Source: an uncultured Phycisphaerales bacterium
Lineage (GTDB): Bacteria > Planctomycetota > Phycisphaerae > UBA1845 > Fen-1342
Direction: 5' to 3'
Length of the DNA: 32,009 nt
Assembly (NCBI GenBank): GCA_903914415.1
Contig: CAIWOY010000243.1
Location: 1-32,009 of the forward strand
Below, one piece after another: positions 4,288 through 23,356 of the stretch. How positions within the stretch are numbered: position 1 is the stretch's first letter; the number at the start of each line of letters is the position of its first letter. A program made the translations under genes and the position numbers. Under the pieces are notes generated by a model. The model saw only the letters and a program-made list of their open reading frames with translations, had not been told where the DNA came from and did no database searches.

Positions 4288-4335
4288 CAAATGCCTGCGA
4301 ACGTCGTGGACGGGCTTGGGGACTGGAGACGTGCC

Positions 4336-5808
4336 GTGACGCAGCTTGAAGCCGCCCGCAAGGGCATCATCACGCCGGCGATGCAACGCGTCGCCGAACG
4401 CGAAAACGCCGCGCCCGATTTCATCCGCCAGCAGCTTGCCGCCGGCCGCCTCGTCATCCCCGCGAACGTGCGCCACCTGGCCGGCAGCGGCGGGCAGCCC
4501 GAATCGCGTATTGCGAATGACGAAGCGAAGGCGACGAACGCCGAAGCGCCGGCCATTCGGCATTCGCCATTCGGCATTCCGAATTCCCTGTGGGTCAACC
4601 AGACCGTCGCCCAGCGCCGCACGTGGCTCGACAGCCCCGACCACCTGCGCGGCGCGCGGGCTCCGAAGCGGCTCGACCCGGCCGGCATCGGCCGCGCCGT
4701 CACGACCAAGATCAACGCGAACCTCGGCGCCTCGCCCCTATCGAGCGACATGCCGCAGGAGCTCTGCAAGCTCCGCGTGGCCCTGCTGTACGGCGCGGAC
4801 ACCGTCATGGACCTTTCGACCGGCGGCGACCTCGACGCCACGCGCCAGGCCATGATCGACCACAGCACGGCCCCGGTCGGCACGGTCCCGATTTACAGCA
4901 TGATCATCGGCCGCACGATCGAGGAGCTCGATCACGACACGATTCTCAAGACCCTCGAACGCCAGGCCCAACAGGGCGTCGATTTCTTCACCATCCACGC
5001 CGGCATTCTGCGCGAGCACCTGCCGCTGATTCGCCGCCGCACGCAGGGTCTGGTCAGCCGTGGCGGGTCGCTGCTGGCCAAGTGGATGCTGCGCCGCAAC
5101 CAGCAGAACCCGATGTACGAGTTGTTCGACGAGATCAGCGCCCTGATGCGGCAGTACGACGTGACCTACTCGCTCGGCGACGGCGTGCGGCCCGGCTGCC
5201 TCGCCGACGCCAGCGACCCCGCGCAGCTTGCGGAGCTGCACGTCCTCGGCGAGCTGGTGCAGCGCGCCCGCGCGGCCGGCGTGCAGGTCATGGTCGAGGG
5301 GCCGGGGCACATCCCGCTCAACGAGGTCGCGTTCAACATGGAGACGCAACGCCGCGTCTGCGATGACGCCCCGTTCTACGTGCTCGGCCCCGTCGTCAGC
5401 GACGTGTTCCCGGGTTACGACCACATCACCAGTGCGATCGGCGCCGCCGAGGCGGCCCGCGCCGGCGCCGCCATGCTGTGCTACGTCACGCCGAGCGAGC
5501 ACGTCGCGCTGCCCGATCTGGAGGACGTGCGGGCGGGGTGCATCGCCTACAAGATCGCCGCCCACGCGGGCGACGTGGCCCGCGGCATCGCGGGGGCGCG
5601 CGACTGGGACGACGCGATGGCCCGGGCACGCGCGCAGTTGAACTGGACGCGGCAATTCGAGCTGGCGTTCGACGGCGAAACGGCCGCCAAGCGGCGCGAC
5701 AAGACTCTGACGGACGACGCCGACTTCTGCTCGATGTGCGGCCGCGACTGGTGCAGCCAGCGGATCAGCCGGGAACTCTCGAGCGACCGGCCGGCGCGCG
5801 AGCGTTAA
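4336..5808 (+). CDS. thiC: Phosphomethylpyrimidine synthase ThiC
   Basis: ThiC converts aminoimidazole ribotide to HMP-phosphate for thiamine synthesis, using a 4Fe-4S cluster and S-adenosylmethionine. The 490-residue product has the family's N-terminal TQLEAARKGIITPAM, the TKINANLGAS stretch, VSRGGS, SLGDGVRPG, EGPGHIPLNE, YVTPSEHVALPD, and a C-terminal CX2CX4C cluster motif (Cys465, Cys468, Cys473). The GTG at 4336 is preferred over the ATG at 4291: GGAG lies 7 bases before it and ThiC proteins conventionally begin with MTQxEAA. Between the N-terminal region and TKINANLG there is an abnormal expansion; residues about 56-84 (4501-4587) are encoded by a short repeat of ATTCGGCATTC-like units rather than by family sequence, and a further novel stretch follows it. 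The catalytic core looks intact. Confidence 0.96.
   Translation: MTQLEAARKGIITPAMQRVAERENAAPDFIRQQLAAGRLVIPANVRHLAGSGGQPESRIANDEAKATNAEAPAIRHSPFGIPNSLWVNQTVAQRRTWLDSPDHLRGARAPKRLDPAGIGRAVTTKINANLGASPLSSDMPQELCKLRVALLYGADTVMDLSTGGDLDATRQAMIDHSTAPVGTVPIYSMIIGRTIEELDHDTILKTLERQAQQGVDFFTIHAGILREHLPLIRRRTQGLVSRGGSLLAKWMLRRNQQNPMYELFDEISALMRQYDVTYSLGDGVRPGCLADASDPAQLAELHVLGELVQRARAAGVQVMVEGPGHIPLNEVAFNMETQRRVCDDAPFYVLGPVVSDVFPGYDHITSAIGAAEAARAGAAMLCYVTPSEHVALPDLEDVRAGCIAYKIAAHAGDVARGIAGARDWDDAMARARAQLNWTRQFELAFDGETAAKRRDKTLTDDADFCSMCGRDWCSQRISRELSSDRPARER
4498..4590 (+). repeat. In-frame simple-repeat insertion in thiC
   Basis: This stretch contains imperfect repeats of CATTCGGCATTCGCCATTC type and has lower GC than the flanking codons. 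It reads in frame through thiC and contributes a segment ending in AIRHSPFGIPNS. Comparable ThiC proteins, such as the Thermotoga one as I recall it, have no counterpart here. Such units resemble dispersed repeats I associate with Planctomycetes, which is recall and not a search result. Confidence 0.7.
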
Positions 5809-6051
5809 GTCTGCCTAACAGAACCCCCCTCCCTCTTAGGGAGGGGCTGGGGGAGGGTCAAGACGCCCGAGTTTTGATAGGCACTCTAAATCACCGTGCG
5901 CGCTCGTGCGACGACAATCCGAGCCGCGACCGGCAGGGAGCGCCCCGCGGAGCATCAGACGCCCGGCCGACGACACCAGCGGGCTTCCGGCGACGCGCTG
6001 CTCGCACGAACGCGGTCCAAGCCAACCGGGCCCGACAACGCCGCCTGACGT
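5809..6051. other. Gene-free gap between thiC and comEC with repeats
   Basis: thiC and comEC converge here. Besides the C-rich repeat at 5822-5861, the gap holds GAGCCGCGACCGGCAGGGAG (5921-5940), which resembles another dispersed repeat family recalled from Planctomycetes. The remainder shows no convincing gene on either strand. Confidence 0.6.
5822..5861 (+). repeat. C-rich/G-rich palindromic repeat, diverged copy A
   Basis: The segment reads CCCCCCTCCCTCTTAGGGAG and onward to GGGGGAGGGTCA. It matches the 41-bp repeats at 18102-18142 and 22328-22368 (opposite orientation) except for two substitutions and one missing G. Its CCCTCCCT/AGGGAGGG core is self-complementary. It lies 14 bases after the thiC stop and could incidentally form a strong hairpin downstream of thiC. 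Confidence 0.85.
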
Positions 6052-10613: not shown

Positions 10614-10870
10614 ATGTTTCTGCGCTGCCACGCCCGGAAGAAGAACGGCCAGCTCCAGCGCTACGGGAGCGTGGTCGAGTCACGCCGCGTGGCCGGCGGC
10701 GCTGCGGTGCAGCGGCCGGTGCCGTACCTACGGCGAGATCAACGACCGCCAGGCGGCGGCCATGGCGCAAGGCCATGGTGGTCTTTGACGAGCCCCAGCA
10801 ACGCTACGAGCCATCTGCGCTGTTCCCGGCGGACCAGTCGTTGCCGCCTGATCAGGTCAACGCGCGGCCG
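10614..10870 (+). pseudogene. IS1634-family transposase, 5' fragment (frameshifted)
   Basis: The ATG at 10614 opens MFLRCHARKKNGQ and continues to VESRRVAGGAAVQRPVPYL, which I recognise as the N-terminus of IS1634-family transposases. The expected GEINDRQAA then continues in another frame, so one extra base is present near 10732. A second extra base (the A in GGCCATGG near 10764) is absent from the sister copy at 12436, after which AWRKAMVVFDEPQQRYEP reads on. Similarity ends near 10870 at VNAR. The catalytic region is missing, so this is a dead fragment. It begins 146 bases inside the left inverted repeat, as expected for an IS leader. Confidence 0.75.
10754..10870 (+). repeat. Long direct repeat, left copy
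   Basis: This roughly 115-bp segment matches 12436-12551 at about 90 percent by eye, in the same orientation. It is the shared N-terminal part of the two transposase fragments. Recombination between the copies would delete the amidotransferase gene. Confidence 0.8.
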
Positions 10871-12435: not shown

Positions 12436-12551
12436 GGCGGCCTGGCGCAAGGCCATGGCGGTCTTTGACGAGCACCAGCAACGCTACGAGCCATTCGCGC
12501 TGTTCCCGGCGGACCGGCCGTTGCCGCCTGACCAGGTCAACGCGCGGGCGG
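12436..12551 (+). repeat. Long direct repeat, right copy
   Basis: Partner of 10754-10870, differing by scattered substitutions and lacking the extra A that shifts the left copy. After this segment the two copies retain only weak resemblance. Confidence 0.8.
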
Positions 12552-16271: not shown

Positions 16272-18401
16272 CTATGTACCGATCCAGTTCCAGAGCAACA
16301 GCATGACCGCGAGGCCGACGACCATGCCGAGGGCGTAGCCCTGGAGCGCGCCGCGCTGCAGGAAATGCAGCAGGAACGACAGGCCGCGCGGGACGGCGGC
16401 GACCAGCCAGATGACGCCGTCGAGGCCGTAGTCGTCGGTCGCGGAGAAGAACCGGCCGAGGTTTCGCAGCGGCCGGACAAACGCGTAGTCGTAGATTTCG
16501 TCGAAGTAGTATTTCGCGTGCCAGAGCCGCCAGAGGCCGCCGAGCGCGCGGGCGTCGGGGTCGGTTTCGGGGGCCTGGCCGAAGCGGGCCCAGGCAAGGC
16601 CGATGCCAGCGAGGGCGACGAGGGCCGAGACGTACATGAGCCAGAGGCCGCCGTGGCCGTGCTCCGGCGCGCCGATGGTGCTGCCGTGCAGGTAGTCGTG
16701 CAGGACGCCGTGGGGGCGGATGAAACCGAGGAACGAGTCACCGCCGGCGGCGAACGTCACGCCCAGGTAGCCCGCGAAGATGGCGCCGATGGCAAGCAGC
16801 CAAAGCGGCGCGATCATGACCAGCGGCGCTTCGTGCGGGTGGGCGGCGTCGTCGGGCAGCCGGAGTTTCCCGTGGAAGCACAGGAAGAACATGCGGAAGG
16901 TGTAGTAGGCAGTGAGGCCGGCGGTGGCGAGCAGGATCAGGCCGGCGACGGGGTGCCGCTCGAAGGCGGCGTGGACGAGCTCGTCCTTGCTCCAGAAGCC
17001 GGAGAGCAGCGGGAAGCCGGCCAGCGCGAGGCAGCCGATGAGCATGGTCCGACAGGTGTGCGGGAGGACGTGGCGCAGGCCGCTGAAGCGGCGGAGGTCG
17101 ATGACGCCGCCGAGGGCGTGCATGACGCTGCCGGCACCGAGGAAGAGCAGGGCTTTGAACCAGGCGTGGGTGAACACGTGGAAGACGGCGGAGTCGGGCA
17201 CGCGGCAGCCGAGGCCGACAAACATGAAGGCGAGCTGGCTGATCGTCGAGTACGCCAGGATGCGTTTCATGTCGTACTGGGCCGCCGCCATGGTGGCGGT
17301 CAGGACGGCGCCGATCAGGCCCAGCACGAGGATGACGTTCAGGGCGAGGGGCGACGCGCCGAAGATCGGCGTGCAGCGGGCGATCATGTAGATGCCAGCG
17401 GTGACCATCGTGGCGGCGTGGATCAACGCGGACACGGGGGTCGGGCCTTCCATGGCGTCGGGGAGCCAAACGTGCAAGGGAAACTGGGCGCTTTTACCGA
17501 GCGCACCGCACATCAGCAGCAACGCGACGGTGGTGATCTGCCAGGGCTCGAGCGCGCCGACGCACTTGAAGACGGTCGCGTAGTCGAGCGGGTTTTCGCC
17601 GCGCTGCACGAGCGGGTCGGCGCCGGCGGTGAGGAACCAGTAGAGGGCAAAAATGCCGAGGGCGAAGCCGAAGTCGCCGATGCGGTTGACGATGAAGGCC
17701 TTCTTGGCGGCGGCGGCGGCGCTGGGCCGCGGGTAGTAGAAGCCGATGAGGAGGTAGCTGCACAGGCCGACGAGCTCCCAGCCGAGGTAGAGCAGGATGA
17801 AGTTGCCGGCGAGGACGAGCGTGGCCATGGAGAAGACGAAGAGGCCGAGGAAGGCGAAGAAGCGCTCGTAGCCGCGCTCGGGGTGGCCGTGGTGGTCGCG
17901 CATGTAGCCGATGGAGTAGACGACGATGATCGTGGAGACGACGGTGACGAAGAGGAGCATGACGGCGGTGAGGCCGTCGAAGTAGAAGTTGACGGCGAGC
18001 CAGTGTTGGTTGCGGAGGCTGGGCTGGTCGCCGAGGCTGATCCAGTTGTAGAGAGTGTAGGTGAGGCCGGGGGCACGTAGCGCTCCTGGGGGATGTGCGC
18101 TCTGACCCTCCCCCTGCCCCCTCCCTAGGAGGGAGGGGGGTTCCGGCGCCGCGCGCGACGGGGCGGCGGGCGATGATACGGCAGACGACGGAGTCGGGCG
18201 CAGGTCGAGAAACAGCACGACGGCGAGGACGGCCGACGCCGCGACGCCGAGGACCACGGGCCAGTGGGCGGCGCTGGCCTTGCGGCGCAGGACGACGAGC
18301 ATGCCGACCACGAGGGCGCCGAGCAGCGGCCAGAAGGGCAGCGTGGCGTAGAGCCGAAGCGGCAGAATCGTCGTTGTAGCATCTGCCAGCGTCACGCTCA
18401 T
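16272..18401 (-). CDS. nuoL: NADH-quinone oxidoreductase subunit L
   Basis: A 709-residue distal proton-pumping subunit, longer than the roughly 613-residue E. coli NuoL. Conserved stretches include VNFYFDGLTAVMLLFVTVVS, YLGWELVGLCSYLLIGFYYPRPSAAAAAKKAF, GKSAQFPLHVWLPDAMEGPTPVSALIHAATMVTAGIYMIAR, KRILAYSTISQLAFM, FTHAWFKALLFLGAGSVMHA, and GFWSKDE. The long lateral helix region follows and the end resembles the terminal anchor. Residues about 68-112, in the loop before the conserved LYNWISLGD, are a Pro/Ala/Gly-rich expansion containing PPSLLGRGQGEGQ (88-100), encoded by a repeat also found in nuoG. The ATG at 18401 overlaps the nuoK stop as ATGA. Confidence 0.97.
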   Translation of the reverse strand: MSVTLADATTTILPLRLYATLPFWPLLGALVVGMLVVLRRKASAAHWPVVLGVAASAVLAVVLFLDLRPTPSSAVSSPAAPSRAAPEPPSLLGRGQGEGQSAHPPGALRAPGLTYTLYNWISLGDQPSLRNQHWLAVNFYFDGLTAVMLLFVTVVSTIIVVYSIGYMRDHHGHPERGYERFFAFLGLFVFSMATLVLAGNFILLYLGWELVGLCSYLLIGFYYPRPSAAAAAKKAFIVNRIGDFGFALGIFALYWFLTAGADPLVQRGENPLDYATVFKCVGALEPWQITTVALLLMCGALGKSAQFPLHVWLPDAMEGPTPVSALIHAATMVTAGIYMIARCTPIFGASPLALNVILVLGLIGAVLTATMAAAQYDMKRILAYSTISQLAFMFVGLGCRVPDSAVFHVFTHAWFKALLFLGAGSVMHALGGVIDLRRFSGLRHVLPHTCRTMLIGCLALAGFPLLSGFWSKDELVHAAFERHPVAGLILLATAGLTAYYTFRMFFLCFHGKLRLPDDAAHPHEAPLVMIAPLWLLAIGAIFAGYLGVTFAAGGDSFLGFIRPHGVLHDYLHGSTIGAPEHGHGGLWLMYVSALVALAGIGLAWARFGQAPETDPDARALGGLWRLWHAKYYFDEIYDYAFVRPLRNLGRFFSATDDYGLDGVIWLVAAVPRGLSFLLHFLQRGALQGYALGMVVGLAVMLLLWNWIGT
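18102..18142 (-). repeat. 41-bp palindromic repeat, copy B, in frame in nuoL
   Basis: Identical over 41 bases to 22328-22368 and closely similar to 5822-5861. On the nuoL coding strand it reads from AACCCCCCTCC to GGGGGAGGGTCAG and encodes PPSLLGRGQGEGQ. The central CCCTCC-TAGG-GAGGG portion is palindromic. Confidence 0.9.
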
Positions 18402-18709
18402 TCGTCCTTCAACATGCGGTATGCGTTCGCATCCAGCGTGCCTTGATAGCGATACAACAGGACCACCAATGCGAGCGCGAGCGCGGCTTCCGCCGCGGCG
18501 ACGGCAATCAGGAACAGGGCGAAGACCTGGCCGTCGAACGTGGGCGCACCCTTCAGCGGGTAGCGCCCAAACGCCACGAGGTTCAGGATGATCCCCTGGA
18601 ACATCATTTCCGTGCACAGGAACATGATGATGAGGTTTCGGCGCGTAACGAATCCGATCAACCCCAGCACGAACAGAATCGCCCCAAGTAGCAGGTACGG
18701 AAGCAGCAT
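18398..18709 (-). CDS. nuoK: NADH-quinone oxidoreductase subunit K
   Basis: A 103-residue, three-helix membrane subunit (MrpC-like) at the base of the complex I membrane arm. FLCTEMMFQGIILNLVAFG contains the membrane glutamate of helix 2, and VAAAEAALALALVVLLYR contains the second glutamate in helix 3, both needed for proton transfer in E. coli. The length matches the family. Its ATG shares a base with the nuoJ stop (TAATG) and its stop overlaps the nuoL start (ATGA), so the three genes are tightly coupled. Confidence 0.97.
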   Translation of the reverse strand: MLLPYLLLGAILFVLGLIGFVTRRNLIIMFLCTEMMFQGIILNLVAFGRYPLKGAPTFDGQVFALFLIAVAAAEAALALALVVLLYRYQGTLDANAYRMLKDE

Positions 18710-19404
18710 TACTCATCCCCCTCACTTTCCGCGCGTGTCGTCGGGCGGCGGCGGGCGATGGCGATCGCACCGACCAGGGCCGCGAGGAGCAGCAGGCCGA
18801 TGATTTGGATGGCCACCACGTACTCCGTCAGCAGCGGCACGCCGACGGCCTCGATCGTGCCGGGCGCTTCGGCGATGGGCGCGGGCAGCGGCGTGCGTTG
18901 GGCGGGGACGAGGAACAGCTCGATCTGGCGGGCCAGGAGGATGAGCAACAGGAAGCCGGCCAGGCAGCCCCAGACCGGCTCGCGCGATTTCACGTCGTAC
19001 GGAGCCGGGCGCGATTGCTGGGCCAGCATGATGACGAAGACGTAGGTGACCAGGATGGCGCCGGCGTAGATGATGACCAGCGCCATCGAGAGAAACGTCG
19101 CCTCCAGCAGCACGAGCAGCCCGGTCACCGCGAAGATCAGCAGGATGAAGTACAGGGCGCTGTAGACCGGCTTGCCGTGCGTGATGACGCGGAGCGCAGC
19201 AAACACCGCGACCAGCGCGAAGCCGGCGAATAAGCCGCGCGGGTCGGCTCCCGGGACAAGTCGCAGCAACAGCGCCAGTAAGACGGCGCCGGCCGCCGCG
19301 AGGACGACCCAGCCCACGCGGCGCGTATCGGCCCGTCCGCCGGGCATGGCAAGGAACAGCCCGACGGCCCCGAGTGTGAGAATCGCGATCAGTAGTGTGG
19401 GCAT
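18709..19404 (-). CDS. nuoJ: NADH-quinone oxidoreductase subunit J
   Basis: A 231-residue membrane subunit, somewhat longer than the roughly 180-residue E. coli protein. The conserved central block is visible as PVYSALYFILLIFAVTGLLVLLEATFLSMALVIIYAGAILVTYVFVIML, the helix whose pi-bulge couples quinone chemistry to proton movement. An additional pair of hydrophobic segments precedes it (about 1-65), and the C-terminus has one more helix. It follows nuoI after a 126-base gap that contains a dispersed repeat, so it may need its own ribosome binding; AGGG lies a few bases before the ATG. Confidence 0.95.
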   Translation of the reverse strand: MPTLLIAILTLGAVGLFLAMPGGRADTRRVGWVVLAAAGAVLLALLLRLVPGADPRGLFAGFALVAVFAALRVITHGKPVYSALYFILLIFAVTGLLVLLEATFLSMALVIIYAGAILVTYVFVIMLAQQSRPAPYDVKSREPVWGCLAGFLLLILLARQIELFLVPAQRTPLPAPIAEAPGTIEAVGVPLLTEYVVAIQIIGLLLLAALVGAIAIARRRPTTRAESEGDE

Positions 19405-19530
19405 GGCCCTGGATTTCCACTCGCTGGTCGCAGGTTTACTCGATTCTCGTTGGCGCGGCCAGGGTGTCGGCGACCGGCAGGACGGCTCGGCAGGAGCCTC
19501 GCCCTCCCACGGTCGCCACGCGTCTGGTCG
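19405..19530. repeat. Dispersed repeat in the nuoI-nuoJ gap
   Basis: The gap contains GGCAGGACGGCTCGGCAGGA and onward to GCCTCGCCCTCCCACGGTCG (about 19476-19515), with a GGCTC/GAGCC hairpin at 19484-19498. It resembles a widespread repeat whose translation gives GRGSCRA, which I recall from Planctomycetes. On the coding strand it begins with the TAG stop of nuoI followed by CGACC. Confidence 0.6.
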
Positions 19531-20133
19531 CTACACTTTTCGTTTCATGTTCGGCTCTGCGACATCCAGGCCTTGCGTGCCGGTCAGGCCGTAGTCGGTC
19601 ACGGGCGGGTTCCGGCGCGGCTTGATGCCCTTGGTCTCCTCGTAGATCTGGAGCAGCTTCTCCTTGTCGAGGATCAACTCCTCGCGCGTGCAACTGACCA
19701 ATTCGTAGAGCGGTGTGAGCTCGATCGCGTCGACCGGGCAGGCCTCCTCGCACAAGCCGCAGTAGATGCAGCGCAGCTCGTCGATGTCGAACTGGACGGG
19801 GTATTTCTCGCGGTCGGGCCAGGGCGACTCGCCGGCTTCGATGTGGATGCAGTGGGCCGGGCAGGCCGTGCTGCACATGAAGCAGGCGACGCAGGCGACG
19901 CGGCCGTCGGGGTCCTTGTTGAGCCGGTGCACGCCGTGGTAGTTCGCGGTGCGCAGCTCGCCGGTGTCTTCGCGCGTCTGCTCCGGGTATTGGTGGACGA
20001 CGGCGTGGCGGCGCTGGAGGTCGAACATGTGGCGGAGAGTGGTTTTCAGGCCGTCGAGGATCTGCGGAAGGTAGAGGCGCTCGGCGGGCGTCAGCTCGGG
20101 TTCCTTCAGCACGATGATGTCGTCGTCACGCAT
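19531..20133 (-). CDS. nuoI: NADH-quinone oxidoreductase subunit I
   Basis: A 200-residue TYKY-type ferredoxin-like subunit carrying two 4Fe-4S clusters (N6a and N6b) between NuoG and NuoB. Cys81, Cys84, Cys87, Cys91 (CVACFMCSTACP) and Cys122, Cys125, Cys128, Cys132 (CIYCGLCEEACP) give two complete CxxCxxCxxxCP motifs. The end EPNMKRKV is family-unlike and stops at a TAG that coincides with the start of a repeat. Upstream, the ribosome binding area lies inside a heptamer tandem repeat, with GAGAG about 8 bases before the ATG. Confidence 0.97.
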   Translation of the reverse strand: MRDDDIIVLKEPELTPAERLYLPQILDGLKTTLRHMFDLQRRHAVVHQYPEQTREDTGELRTANYHGVHRLNKDPDGRVACVACFMCSTACPAHCIHIEAGESPWPDREKYPVQFDIDELRCIYCGLCEEACPVDAIELTPLYELVSCTREELILDKEKLLQIYEETKGIKPRRNPPVTDYGLTGTQGLDVAEPNMKRKV

Positions 20134-20139
20134 GGGGAA

Positions 20140-20167
20140 GCTCTCAGCTATCAGCTCTCGGCTCTCA
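20140..20167. repeat. Heptamer tandem repeat at the nuoI start
   Basis: Four 7-bp units: GCTCTCA, GCTATCA, GCTCTCG, GCTCTCA. On the nuo strand this is a run of TGAGAGC-type units ending 6 bases before the nuoI ATG. The GAGAG of the last unit is the only Shine-Dalgarno-like sequence, so copy number could influence nuoI translation. Confidence 0.7.
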
Positions 20168-20210
20168 GCCGGTGCCGTGCGGGCGATCGCAGGCCATTCG
20201 CCTTCTACGG

Positions 20211-20346
20211 CCGGCAGGGGCGCCGGCCGCTACATTTCCGAGGCCGGGCGCTACATTTCTGGGGCCGGGCGTTACGTTTTCGAGGCGTGACGCTGCGGCG
20301 GCCGGCGAGACGCCGTCAGGCACAGAGGCCGGACGCTACGTTGTCG
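20211..20346. repeat. 21-bp tandem repeats with GTAGCG heads in the nuoH-nuoI gap
   Basis: On the plus strand, units ending CGCTACATTTC recur with a period near 21 bases: CCGGCCGCTAC (20223-20233), GGCCGGGCGCTAC (20242-20253), GGCCGGGCGTTAC (20263-20274), a diverged GGCGTGACGCTGC (20284), and GGCCGGACGCTAC (20328-20339). Read in the nuo direction each starts GTAGCG or a variant. The first unit's TAG is the nuoH stop codon. Confidence 0.75.
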
Positions 20347-21643
20347 GGCGTACGTCGATTTCCGGCAGGTCCTCCTGTCGGGCCGTCACCGGCCGCTTCG
20401 AGCGGGCCGCAGAGCGCAGCAGGACGGCCAGCAGCAGCAGGTTCGCCGCTAGGCTCGCCCAGACGTTTCGCTGCCAGCCCAGATACGTCAGAGCGGCCGT
20501 CGCCGCGAGGAGGGCGACGCCGATCGGCACGAGCGACTGCCAGGCGACCCGCATGAGCTGGTCGAAGCGGAAGCGCGGGAGCGTCCAGCGCACCAGCATG
20601 AACAGCGCGATGAACAGGGCGACCTTGGTCAGGTACACGGCCAGCTTGATCAGCATCGCCCACCAGGTCACGTTCTCCGGCCCAGGCAGGCCCCAGAAGT
20701 GCCAGCCGCCGAAGAAGAGCGCGACGATCAGGGCGCTGCTCGTGATCATGTGCGCGTACTCGCCGAGGAAGAACATCGCGAACTTCATCGCGCTGTACTC
20801 GGTGTGGTAGCCGCCGACCAGCTCCTGCTCGGCCTCGGGCAGGTCGAACGGAGCCCGGTTTGCTTCGGCCAGCGCGCTGACCAGGACCAGGAAGAACGCG
20901 ATGGGGTGCAGGAAGATGTTCCAAACGCCGGTGGCGGCTTGCTGCTGGACGATCTGGTCGAGCTGGAGCGTGCCGCTGACCAGGAGCACGACGAGCAGGC
21001 CAAGCCCCAGCGGCAGCTCGTAACTGATCATCTGGGCCGCGGCGCGCATGCCGCCGTAGAACGCGTACTTGTTGTTGCTGGCGTAGCCGGCGAGCACGAC
21101 GCCGTAGACGCTGAGGGAGCCGACGGCGAGGAGGTAGAGGAAGCCGACGTTGAGGTTGGCGACCTGGGTGGAGAGCGGCGGGGCATCGGGCGGCATCCAG
21201 GGCCAGCGGACTTGGCCGGCCCAGGGGATGATCGCGAAGCCGAGCAACGAAGCGGCCAGGGCCAACGCGGGGGCCAACAGGAACAGCGGCTTGTCGACGT
21301 GCCGCGGGATGATGTCCTCTTTTAGCAGGAATTTCAGCCCGTCGGCGACCGGCTGGAGCAAGCCCCAGAAGCCGACGCGGTTCGGCCCGTAGCGATCCTG
21401 CGTAAAGCCGGCGATCTTGCGTTCGAACAGGATGCACAGGGCGGTCGCGCTGAGGATCAGGACGAGCATGACCGCGAGCACGATCATGGAGAACGAGAAC
21501 TGCGATGAGAGCAGGGGTTTGTAGAGCGGGAAAGCCAGCGCGAGGAGCGCGGTGACCAACAGTAGAATGGCGGCGCCGGCGCCGAAGATCACGGCCGGCT
21601 TCCGCAGCACTGTTTCAATTCGTTTGATCGTCGGATCGGTCAT
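20336..21643 (-). CDS. nuoH: NADH-quinone oxidoreductase subunit H
   Basis: A membrane subunit of about 435 residues that forms much of the quinone chamber at the junction of the two complex I arms. Clear landmarks are LFERKIAGFTQDRYGPNRVGFWGLLQPVADGLKFLLKEDI, GYASNNKYAFYGGMRAAAQMISYE, and the acidic EANRAPFDLPEAEQELVGGYHTEYSAMKFAMFFLGEYAH loop. The C-terminal 90 or so residues extend past the last conserved block with one more hydrophobic segment. The ATG at 21643 is preferred; a GTG two codons earlier (21649) is possible and neither has a strong ribosome binding site. The TAG stop lies in a GTAGCG repeat. Confidence 0.96.
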   Translation of the reverse strand: MTDPTIKRIETVLRKPAVIFGAGAAILLLVTALLALAFPLYKPLLSSQFSFSMIVLAVMLVLILSATALCILFERKIAGFTQDRYGPNRVGFWGLLQPVADGLKFLLKEDIIPRHVDKPLFLLAPALALAASLLGFAIIPWAGQVRWPWMPPDAPPLSTQVANLNVGFLYLLAVGSLSVYGVVLAGYASNNKYAFYGGMRAAAQMISYELPLGLGLLVVLLVSGTLQLDQIVQQQAATGVWNIFLHPIAFFLVLVSALAEANRAPFDLPEAEQELVGGYHTEYSAMKFAMFFLGEYAHMITSSALIVALFFGGWHFWGLPGPENVTWWAMLIKLAVYLTKVALFIALFMLVRWTLPRFRFDQLMRVAWQSLVPIGVALLAATAALTYLGWQRNVWASLAANLLLLAVLLRSAARSKRPVTARQEDLPEIDVRPTT

Positions 21644-21676
21644 GCTCACTACCAGCCGGTTCTGACCACGAGGGAC

Positions 21677-23356
21677 TTAGTGTGCGCGCTTGGGCAAATC
21701 GCGCGGGATAAACACCTCGGAGAACTGCGGCAATTCGGCCGCCATTGTCTCGCGCACCGTCTGCGCGCGGAACAGGCCGGGCTGGCCCAATAGCTCGTAG
21801 AAAAACTGCCCGTCGGCCTTTACGCCCTCCAGCGGCGGTAAGGCCCGCTCGAATGGTTGAAGGAGGCCGTCGCAGTTCATGAACGTGCCCTCACGCTCCG
21901 TCCACGCGGCGCCGGGAATCTGCACGGCGGCGGCGCCGTCGAGCGCGGAGGGGAACAGGTCGTGCACGACAAGGAACGGGATTCTGGCAAGCGCCGCTGC
22001 GACGGGGTCAGTGACCCACGCGTCGGGATATCCGCCGGTGACGTACGCCGCGCGAAAGCGGCCTTCGACGGCCTGGGCGAGGAATTCCTGGAAGCTCGCG
22101 GTCGGGCCGCCGAGATGTTGCAGGATGGTCTCGACGCCGCGGCGGTTGGGGCATTTTTCGGCCTTGATGGTGAAGCCGTTGGGGTAGGTCTGGTCATGGC
22201 CGGACACGGGTACGTGGCCCAGGACGAGGGTGGCTTGCGGCGCGAGGCTGCGGGCGAGTTTCGCGAGCAGCCAGGCCTCTTCGCAGGTCAGCATGGGGCT
22301 GAGGACGGCGGCGAGCGGGCCGATGCCCTGACCCTCCCCCTGCCCCCTCCCTAGGAGGGAGGGGGGTTGCGCGAGCCGCGCGCCCCCGCCTGGACCGGCC
22401 GGCGAGGCGCAGGCCGCCACGCCCGCGAACGGCGCGCGGAGCAGACCAGGCAGTTCTTCCCAGCGGGCCGGTTGAAGGGCCACGCCTTGCCGGATGCGGG
22501 GCTGGCGGAGGCGGTCGGGGCGGTGGACATGCTTCCAGCCGAAGCGGGCCTCGTCGCTGATCCACCACTCGTTGATCTTCTCGTTGTAGCGCGGGCGGAT
22601 GCGGTGTATGCCGGCCTCGTTGTAGTCGATCCAGATCGTCTGCCCGCGGCTGTCCGCCGGGCTGACCGAGCGGGCGGAGCGGAGCAGCCAGACGCGCTGC
22701 TTGAAGAGGAAGCCCTTGTCGAGCAAGGCGCCGACGGGGCAGAGGTCCACGACGTTGCCCTGCAGCGGGTTTTCGAGCGGCTGGCCGGGGAGCACGTCGA
22801 TCTCACAACGGCTGCCGCGGCCGACGACCGCCAGCTCGCCGGTGCCGGCGATCTCGTCGCAGAAGCGCACGCAGCGCGAGCAGAGGACGCAGCGGTCCTG
22901 GTAGAGCAGGGTGTGCGGGCCGATGTCCTTCTTGGGGTTCTTGGTTTTGTCCTCGACCATGCGTGAGGTGGCGGGGCCGTTTGCCTCGGTGTAATCCTGC
23001 AAGTAGCACTCGCCCGCCTTGTCGCAGACCGGGCAATCGAGGGGGTGGTTCAGGAGGTAGTACTCCATGACGTGCTGCTGGTTTTCGCGGACCGGGTCCG
23101 AGCGGAACCGCACCTCGAGGCCGTCCCGGACCGGGGTCTGACAGGACGGAAAGAGCTTCGGGGCCCAATCCATCTGCCCGGTCTTCGGGTTCGGCATCTT
23201 CATTTCCATCAGGCACAGCCGGCAGCTCGCGACCACGCTAAGCCCGGGGTGATAGCAATAGTGCGGGACCGCCAAGCCGGCTTCGAGGGCCGCCTGCAAG
23301 ACCGGGATGCCGCTCCGGCACTCAATCGTGTGTCCGTCGATGATGATCTTCGGCAT
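21677..23356 (-). CDS. nuoG: NADH-quinone oxidoreductase subunit G
   Basis: A 559-residue large Fe-S subunit, shorter than E. coli NuoG (about 900) but within the range of compact forms. Cys34, Cys45, Cys48 and Cys72 bind a 2Fe-2S cluster. His104, Cys108, Cys111 and Cys117 form the His-Cys3 4Fe-4S site. Cys156, Cys159, Cys162 and Cys206 form a further 4Fe-4S site. The C-terminal half is a reduced molybdopterin-oxidoreductase-like domain. Residues about 314-347 are a Gly/Pro/Ala-rich insertion with PPSLLGRGQGEGQ (331-343), the same repeat-encoded peptide as in NuoL. The start at 23356 begins the ferredoxin domain and follows nuoF by 32 bases. Confidence 0.96.
   Translation of the reverse strand: MPKIIIDGHTIECRSGIPVLQAALEAGLAVPHYCYHPGLSVVASCRLCLMEMKMPNPKTGQMDWAPKLFPSCQTPVRDGLEVRFRSDPVRENQQHVMEYYLLNHPLDCPVCDKAGECYLQDYTEANGPATSRMVEDKTKNPKKDIGPHTLLYQDRCVLCSRCVRFCDEIAGTGELAVVGRGSRCEIDVLPGQPLENPLQGNVVDLCPVGALLDKGFLFKQRVWLLRSARSVSPADSRGQTIWIDYNEAGIHRIRPRYNEKINEWWISDEARFGWKHVHRPDRLRQPRIRQGVALQPARWEELPGLLRAPFAGVAACASPAGPGGGARLAQPPSLLGRGQGEGQGIGPLAAVLSPMLTCEEAWLLAKLARSLAPQATLVLGHVPVSGHDQTYPNGFTIKAEKCPNRRGVETILQHLGGPTASFQEFLAQAVEGRFRAAYVTGGYPDAWVTDPVAAALARIPFLVVHDLFPSALDGAAAVQIPGAAWTEREGTFMNCDGLLQPFERALPPLEGVKADGQFFYELLGQPGLFRAQTVRETMAAELPQFSEVFIPRDLPKRAH
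22328..22368 (-). repeat. 41-bp palindromic repeat, copy C, in frame in nuoG
   Basis: Identical over 41 bases to 18102-18142, in the same orientation and the same reading frame relative to its host gene. It encodes PPSLLGRGQGEGQ between the Fe-S half and the C-terminal domain of NuoG. Confidence 0.9.

Follow-up and report, generated by a model that had tools for sequence, protein, structure and literature searches.

The first protein-coding palindromes to be described came from Rickettsia and have been treated as a curiosity; Rickettsia palindromic elements (RPEs) were reported in Wolbachia too. Miniature inverted-repeat transposable elements (MITEs) of bacteria include Correia/NEMIS, RUP and ERIC. 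RPEs are described as Rickettsia-specific dispersed palindromes of 105–146 bp that occur both between genes and in frame in conserved protein genes (PMC2229807). GTAG/CGTC-tagged repetitive extragenic palindromes (REPs) are 20–40-bp palindromes with many copies that lie near gene ends, sometimes supply stop codons, sometimes occur within genes for DNA ligase, tRNA synthetases and repair proteins and are present in Planctomycetes and Verrucomicrobia; untagged REP-like families are still to be studied (PMC3733652). The enterobacterial RU-1/2/3 repeats (103–168 bp) are small mobile repeats translated in frame (PMC2759123). Here we analyse a repeat in a 32,009-nt stretch of DNA from an uncultured Phycisphaerales bacterium (contig CAIWOY010000243.1, assembly GCA_903914415.1), called the window below: a hairpin core of about 36–41 bp which lies in frame in nuoL and nuoG, the genes of two complex I subunits, and which also forms part of a 78-bp miniature element downstream of thiC.

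Our data are best explained, with a probability of roughly 0.8, by a high-copy hairpin repeat that spreads within genomes in two states, as the 78-bp miniature element and as a core-only unit entering linkers and loops of proteins, with NuoL and NuoG entered independently in two genera.

Compared by description, the core behaves like an RPE, being a dispersed palindrome present between genes and in frame in conserved ones. A resemblance to RPEs had been proposed in the preliminary description of the window, made from its sequence, and it holds for behaviour but not for membership, since instead of a Rickettsia-specific unit of 105–146 bp we find a 36–41-bp core and a 78-bp TNA-targeting element in a planctomycete, with the core in other phyla as well. 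With tagged REPs the core shares small size, high copy number, palindromic structure, location near gene ends and some intragenic copies. However, no conserved GTAG or CGTC tag is present at either core end in 85 copies, so membership in the tagged-REP families is not supported either. Counts of Y1 transposases do not track copy number. RU-1/2/3 repeats resemble the core in being small, mobile and translated in frame, but they are longer, enterobacterial and, by description, have an unrelated set of hosts. The 78-bp form has the inverted ends, target duplication and empty sites of bacterial MITEs, while its target is a 3-bp TNA, a search with 24-nt ends found no partner and the nuo copies lack the ends. 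We class the core as an untagged intragenic repeat of the REP/RPE type, which in this genus also takes a complete MITE form. No earlier description of its peptides or DNA motif was found in the open literature searched.

Results

The nuoL and nuoG copies of the 41-mer CTGACCCTCCCCCTGCCCCCTCCCTAGGAGGGAGGGGGGTT agree without a mismatch, on one strand and in one codon phase (Table 1), and both proteins contain PPSLLGRGQGEGQ, as residues 88–100 of NuoL (709 aa) and 331–343 of NuoG (559 aa). Sequence and gene calls thus bear out the identity, orientation, phase and shared peptide initially reported, and chance does not account for an exact 41-base match between two sites within 32 kb. NuoL is identified by NF005141 (627 bits versus a cut-off of 556 in NCBIfam), in agreement with Pfam. 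The best model for NuoG, TIGR01973, scores under its cut-off, with Pfam domains supporting the assignment; a short NuoG, mostly of about 530–626 aa, is common in relatives too. The peptide lies ahead of the Pfam N-terminal block in NuoL, and in NuoG after the Fe-S domains (end at 273) and before the molybdopterin-like domain (from 426); these domain limits match the earlier placement before the first conserved block and between the Fe-S and C-terminal domains, respectively. The copies in nuoL, nuoG and mfd have the rarer 3-nt GCA spacer in common. Being identical to each other and unique in the genome, the nuo copies suggest that one was copied from the other.

The host genome, G000, is a 4.74-Mb Phycisphaerae-related planctomycete metagenome-assembled genome (MAG) in 464 contigs. 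The exact 41-mer occurs there at two places, and at three when up to three mismatches are allowed; controls with reversed patterns gave no matches. A covariance model of the core, built from seven copies and used at E < 0.01, reveals a dispersed hairpin family with at least 85 distinct copies, a lower bound because scoring covered 150 of the 450 first-look candidates. The core is a high-copy, GC-asymmetric hairpin with the layout ACCCCCCTCCCT-NNN-AGGGAGGGG-NN(N)-GGGGGAGGGT and the consensus AACCCCCCTCCCTCTYAGGGAGGGGCTGGGGGAGGGTCRAA. The many-copy nature of the repeat, claimed from the window, is therefore real, and the scarcity of further copies that had been named in advance as refuting it was not observed. 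A local duplication confined to the nuo cluster was rejected, as the copies are spread genome-wide.

Genes around the copies were predicted with a simple codon-based caller trained on window genes. Fully or almost fully within predicted genes lie 28 of the 85 copies, as expected from the preliminary description, and they use five of the six frames. Sense frames of the core read PPSLLGRGQGEG, TPLPLREGLGEGR and PPPSQGGAGGGS, and antisense frames TLPQPLPEREG and PSPGPSLEERG. Hosts with Pfam assignments are Mfd (two copies, in opposite orientation), a xanthine dehydrogenase (XDH)-type protein, glutaminyl-tRNA synthetase (GlnRS), polyprenyl synthetase, the NAD-dependent DNA ligase LigA (with the copy within the adenylation domain), HypF, UbiD, alanyl-tRNA synthetase (AlaRS), AcrB, a fumarase-type lyase and others. 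These host genes are real, since their flanks on either side of the insert are conserved in relatives, and their function is probably kept, as the conserved domains on either side remain in frame. Avoidance of stop codons is not significant: in the frame in which TAG would terminate the protein, none of 7 coding copies has TAG, compared with 17 of 53 intergenic ones (p = 0.18). The insert in GlnRS (L086) additionally contains GEGEAPAEP, which resembles part of yet another repeat-derived peptide.

Comparison within the genus was made with one genome, G001. It lacks the inserts in NuoL and NuoG as well as in some twelve further hosts, including Mfd, the XDH-type protein, GlnRS, LigA, HypF, UbiD and AlaRS, and it has an insert in four hosts (polyprenyl synthetase, AcrB and two more), with the frame kept and some substitutions. 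Absence from near relatives at the nuo sites, an assumption of the preliminary description, is thereby confirmed against G001. Conservation of the peptide at these places across homologues, which would have spoken against a mobile repeat, was not observed; among relatives, G011 alone has one there. Since near relatives are without most of the inserts, we regard the repeat as a spreading element. A conserved functional linker peptide was rejected, nearly all relatives being without the peptide. At several sites the inserted stretch amounts to 27–41 residues (up to about 120 nt), which exceeds the core and often includes a second repeat. In the UbiD of another relative, G016, the identical point is occupied by an unrelated insert; such sites are permissive and collect inserts.

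Alignment of flanks revealed that many intergenic copies form the centre of a longer element of 78 bp, which has inverted ends of 18 bp (GTGTGCCTAACAGAACCC / GAGCGCCTATCAAAACCC; GAGYGCCTATCA ends) and a 3-bp TNA duplication. Full-length copies number 30 intergenic and two coding ones, and most lie just behind genes, often on stop codons. Their flanking 3-mers are identical in 14 of 32 cases compared with 6.2 in shuffles (p about 1e-4), and at several loci, the thiC site of the window included, the matching site in G001 is unoccupied and has just one TNA-type triplet. At that site the 78-bp form has the marks of a MITE, namely terminal inverted repeats and a target duplication whose target is single-copy in the empty relative. 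The copy initially placed at 5822–5861 is real, lies on the opposite strand to the nuo copies and is non-coding, but it is part of this longer element rather than a diverged copy on its own. As RNA, the full 78-bp element folds with z = -3.8.

In contrast, 26 of the 28 coding copies show no trace of the 78-bp ends, while many intergenic copies have both, so that the distribution is bimodal; two coding copies (L076 and L096) retain weak ends. At the nuoL and nuoG copies neither terminal inverted repeats nor a target duplication is present. The 78-bp ends are likewise missing from core copies sampled elsewhere in the family, in other genera, whereas G001 has two full-length sites in common with G000; on these grounds the 78-bp form appears to be a carrier, at the level of the genus, of a core that is older. 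A composite element was also noted (L145, L131, L138, L155), in which a second hairpin, CCCCTCACC...GGGGAG...GGGTTACGGGA, adjoins the core and the flanks are different; because of it, more than one larger element seems to contain the core as a building block. A role of REP-associated tyrosine transposase (RAYT) as a mobiliser of the core is not supported, as its counts in 22 genomes do not track copy number: Y1_Tnp matches number 1 in the repeat-rich G003 and 20 in the repeat-free G017.

A covariance-model search for the core in 60 nuo loci from 41 genomes returned four strong or credible copies, in NuoL and NuoG of G000 and in NuoL and NuoG of G011, which belongs to another genus. In G011 the NuoG copy has diverged and runs antisense (E 0.002 in 265 kb). 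In a tree of NuoG plus NuoL, G011 groups with G014 and G000 with G001, and both G014 and G001 are without inserts. The simplest reading of these sequences is that the NuoL and NuoG inserts arose by a separate insertion in each genus.

Within the family, copy counts are 111 in G003, 87 in G000, 52 in G002, 45 in G011, 39 in G014 and 21 in G001, with none in many others. Matches were found in 26 of 294 genomes sampled across the phylum, a lower bound with few candidates scored per genome. Among the matches listed for a degenerate exact pattern are Bacteroidota (mostly Prevotellaceae), Alphaproteobacteria, Chloroflexota, Nitrospinota and Planctomycetota, so five phyla or more share the core. Of 122 such listed pattern copies, 42 are in open frames that extend for at least 80 codons to either side, and their hosts include glutamate synthase, AcrB and an alpha-rhamnosidase.

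Table 1. Positions of the repeat copies, their parts and their host genes in the window
Feature	Position	Strand	Remark
nuoL, 709 aa	16272..18401	-	hosts core copy
Core-only copy in nuoL	18102..18142	-	read as PPSLLGRGQGEGQ
nuoG, 559 aa	21677..23356	-	hosts core copy
Core-only copy in nuoG	22328..22368	-	identical to nuoL copy over 41 nt, same codon phase
thiC	4291..5808	+	stop codon targeted by miniature element
Full-length 78-bp miniature inverted-repeat element	5809..5886	+	downstream of thiC
Core within miniature element	5822..5862	+	2-nt spacer variant
Left terminal inverted repeat	5809..5826	+	GTCTGCCTAACAGAACCC
Right terminal inverted repeat	5869..5886	- (reverse strand)	GAGTGCCTATCAAAACTC
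Target duplication TAA	5806..5808	.	also serves as thiC stop codon; one TAA without the element in G001
Second TAA copy of target duplication	5887..5889	.	

Discussion

Our reading builds on direct observations, namely the copy census, frames, host identity, empty and shared sites, and the boundaries and target duplication of the miniature element. In the 78-bp state, which the empty sites demonstrate, the repeat is the heart of a miniature transposable element with a 3-bp TNA target, landing mostly just behind genes and presumably moved by a transposase. In the core-only state the unit has entered linkers and loops of many proteins, and it may be copied directly, with one nuo copy as the template of the other or with a shared source for the two. 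As five of the six core frames are normally open, insertions can survive as extra Pro/Gly-rich surface peptides, which would stay in the protein and be neutral.

Several points weigh against this picture. A search with the 24-nt end pattern, in which shorter ends were not included, gave 18 matches in the own genome and identified no autonomous partner with such ends, and the flank test detected no target duplication at core-only copies. Against G001, neither nuoL nor nuoG shows a clean 41-bp insertion, as the linkers diverge over a longer stretch. These are thus not clean single insertions but stretches of more than 41 bp within hypervariable linkers, and from the simple in-frame 41-bp insertion first envisaged the presence of the repeat at the site stands while the size does not. 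The core hairpin gains no stability over its own shuffles. The genome is a fragmented MAG, gene calls rest on a simple codon model, and the translation of the inserts is a prediction.

Another explanation takes the core-only copies for decayed full-length elements with eroded ends. The weak ends of L076 and L096 agree with this, as does the fact that some core-only copies have a core identical to that of full-length ones. Erosion fits poorly, however, with a bimodal distribution of ends, and the flanks differ in core copies sampled from further genera of the family and from further phyla, which makes decay rather unlikely. We consider it less likely still that selection keeps the repeat for a function at the RNA or DNA level (as a terminator, an mRNA-stabilising hairpin or a G-quadruplex), with the coding copies as by-products. 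The position of full-length copies just behind stop codons, their strong RNA fold and the G-rich strand GGGAGGGGGCAGGGGGAGGG, which fits a G-quadruplex motif, speak for such a role, but the position can also be explained by choice of TNA targets at stop codons, the core is no more stable than its shuffles, presence in the family is patchy (from 0 to over 100 copies) and sites are polymorphic between close relatives.

Common ancestry of the NuoL and NuoG inserts in the genera of G000 and G011, followed by loss in G001 and others and by inversion of one NuoG copy in place, would account for cores in the identical two linkers of both genera and for the rare GCA spacer common to their NuoL copies. 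We judge it distinctly improbable: the nearest relatives of each in the subunit tree have no inserts, the two NuoG copies are on opposite strands, and the identity of the nuoL and nuoG copies in G000 suggests recent copying. An assembly or binning artefact, or convergence of low-complexity sequence, might be suspected in a MAG of 464 contigs with a core made of short C and G runs. It is scarcely credible given that copies lie inside contigs, that both gene halves are in frame and orthologous to relatives, that reversed patterns match nothing and that orthologous filled and empty sites are present.

One repeat family thus occurs in frame in some two dozen proteins within one planctomycete lineage, close relatives show both occupied and unoccupied sites, and under the favoured reading, two-state spread of a hairpin repeat, it has struck the same pair of complex I subunits in two genera. 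This constitutes a natural experiment in which selfish DNA adds peptides to essential proteins and indicates which loops tolerate them. It is also a warning for annotation, as Pro/Gly-rich peptides such as PPSLLGRGQGEG, TPLPLREGLGEG and PPPSQGGAGGG in unrelated proteins can be repeat-derived. The occurrence of the core in distant phyla raises the question how so short a unit spreads. A tentative extension, which we hold to be possible rather than probable, is that the core itself is an independently mobile, coding-tolerant unit in at least five bacterial phyla, to which lineages add their own flanks (here the genus-level TNA miniature element) and which goes back time and again into the same tolerant loops of essential proteins, complex I subunits among them.

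Other repeats

Another dispersed family in G000, CCCGTCGCTTGCGCTCCGGGCTC, has 90 matches within 3 mismatches, often as inverted pairs about 53 bp apart (L159, L166, L377-L388; L389:195-791). It encodes SEPGAQATG beside core inserts in AlaRS and an activase. As a Y1/RAYT-like gene is flanked by inverted CCCGTCGCTTGCGCTCCGGGCTC copies, this family has the appearance of a true REP linked to RAYT. A third palindrome, GTCCCCCCTGAGAGGGGGGAC, is seen repeatedly in the vicinity of core copies (L162, L171, L099, L110). Finally, the window contains a 108-bp direct repeat (10763–10870 and 12443–12550, 93% identical), which flanks open reading frames without a Pfam match.

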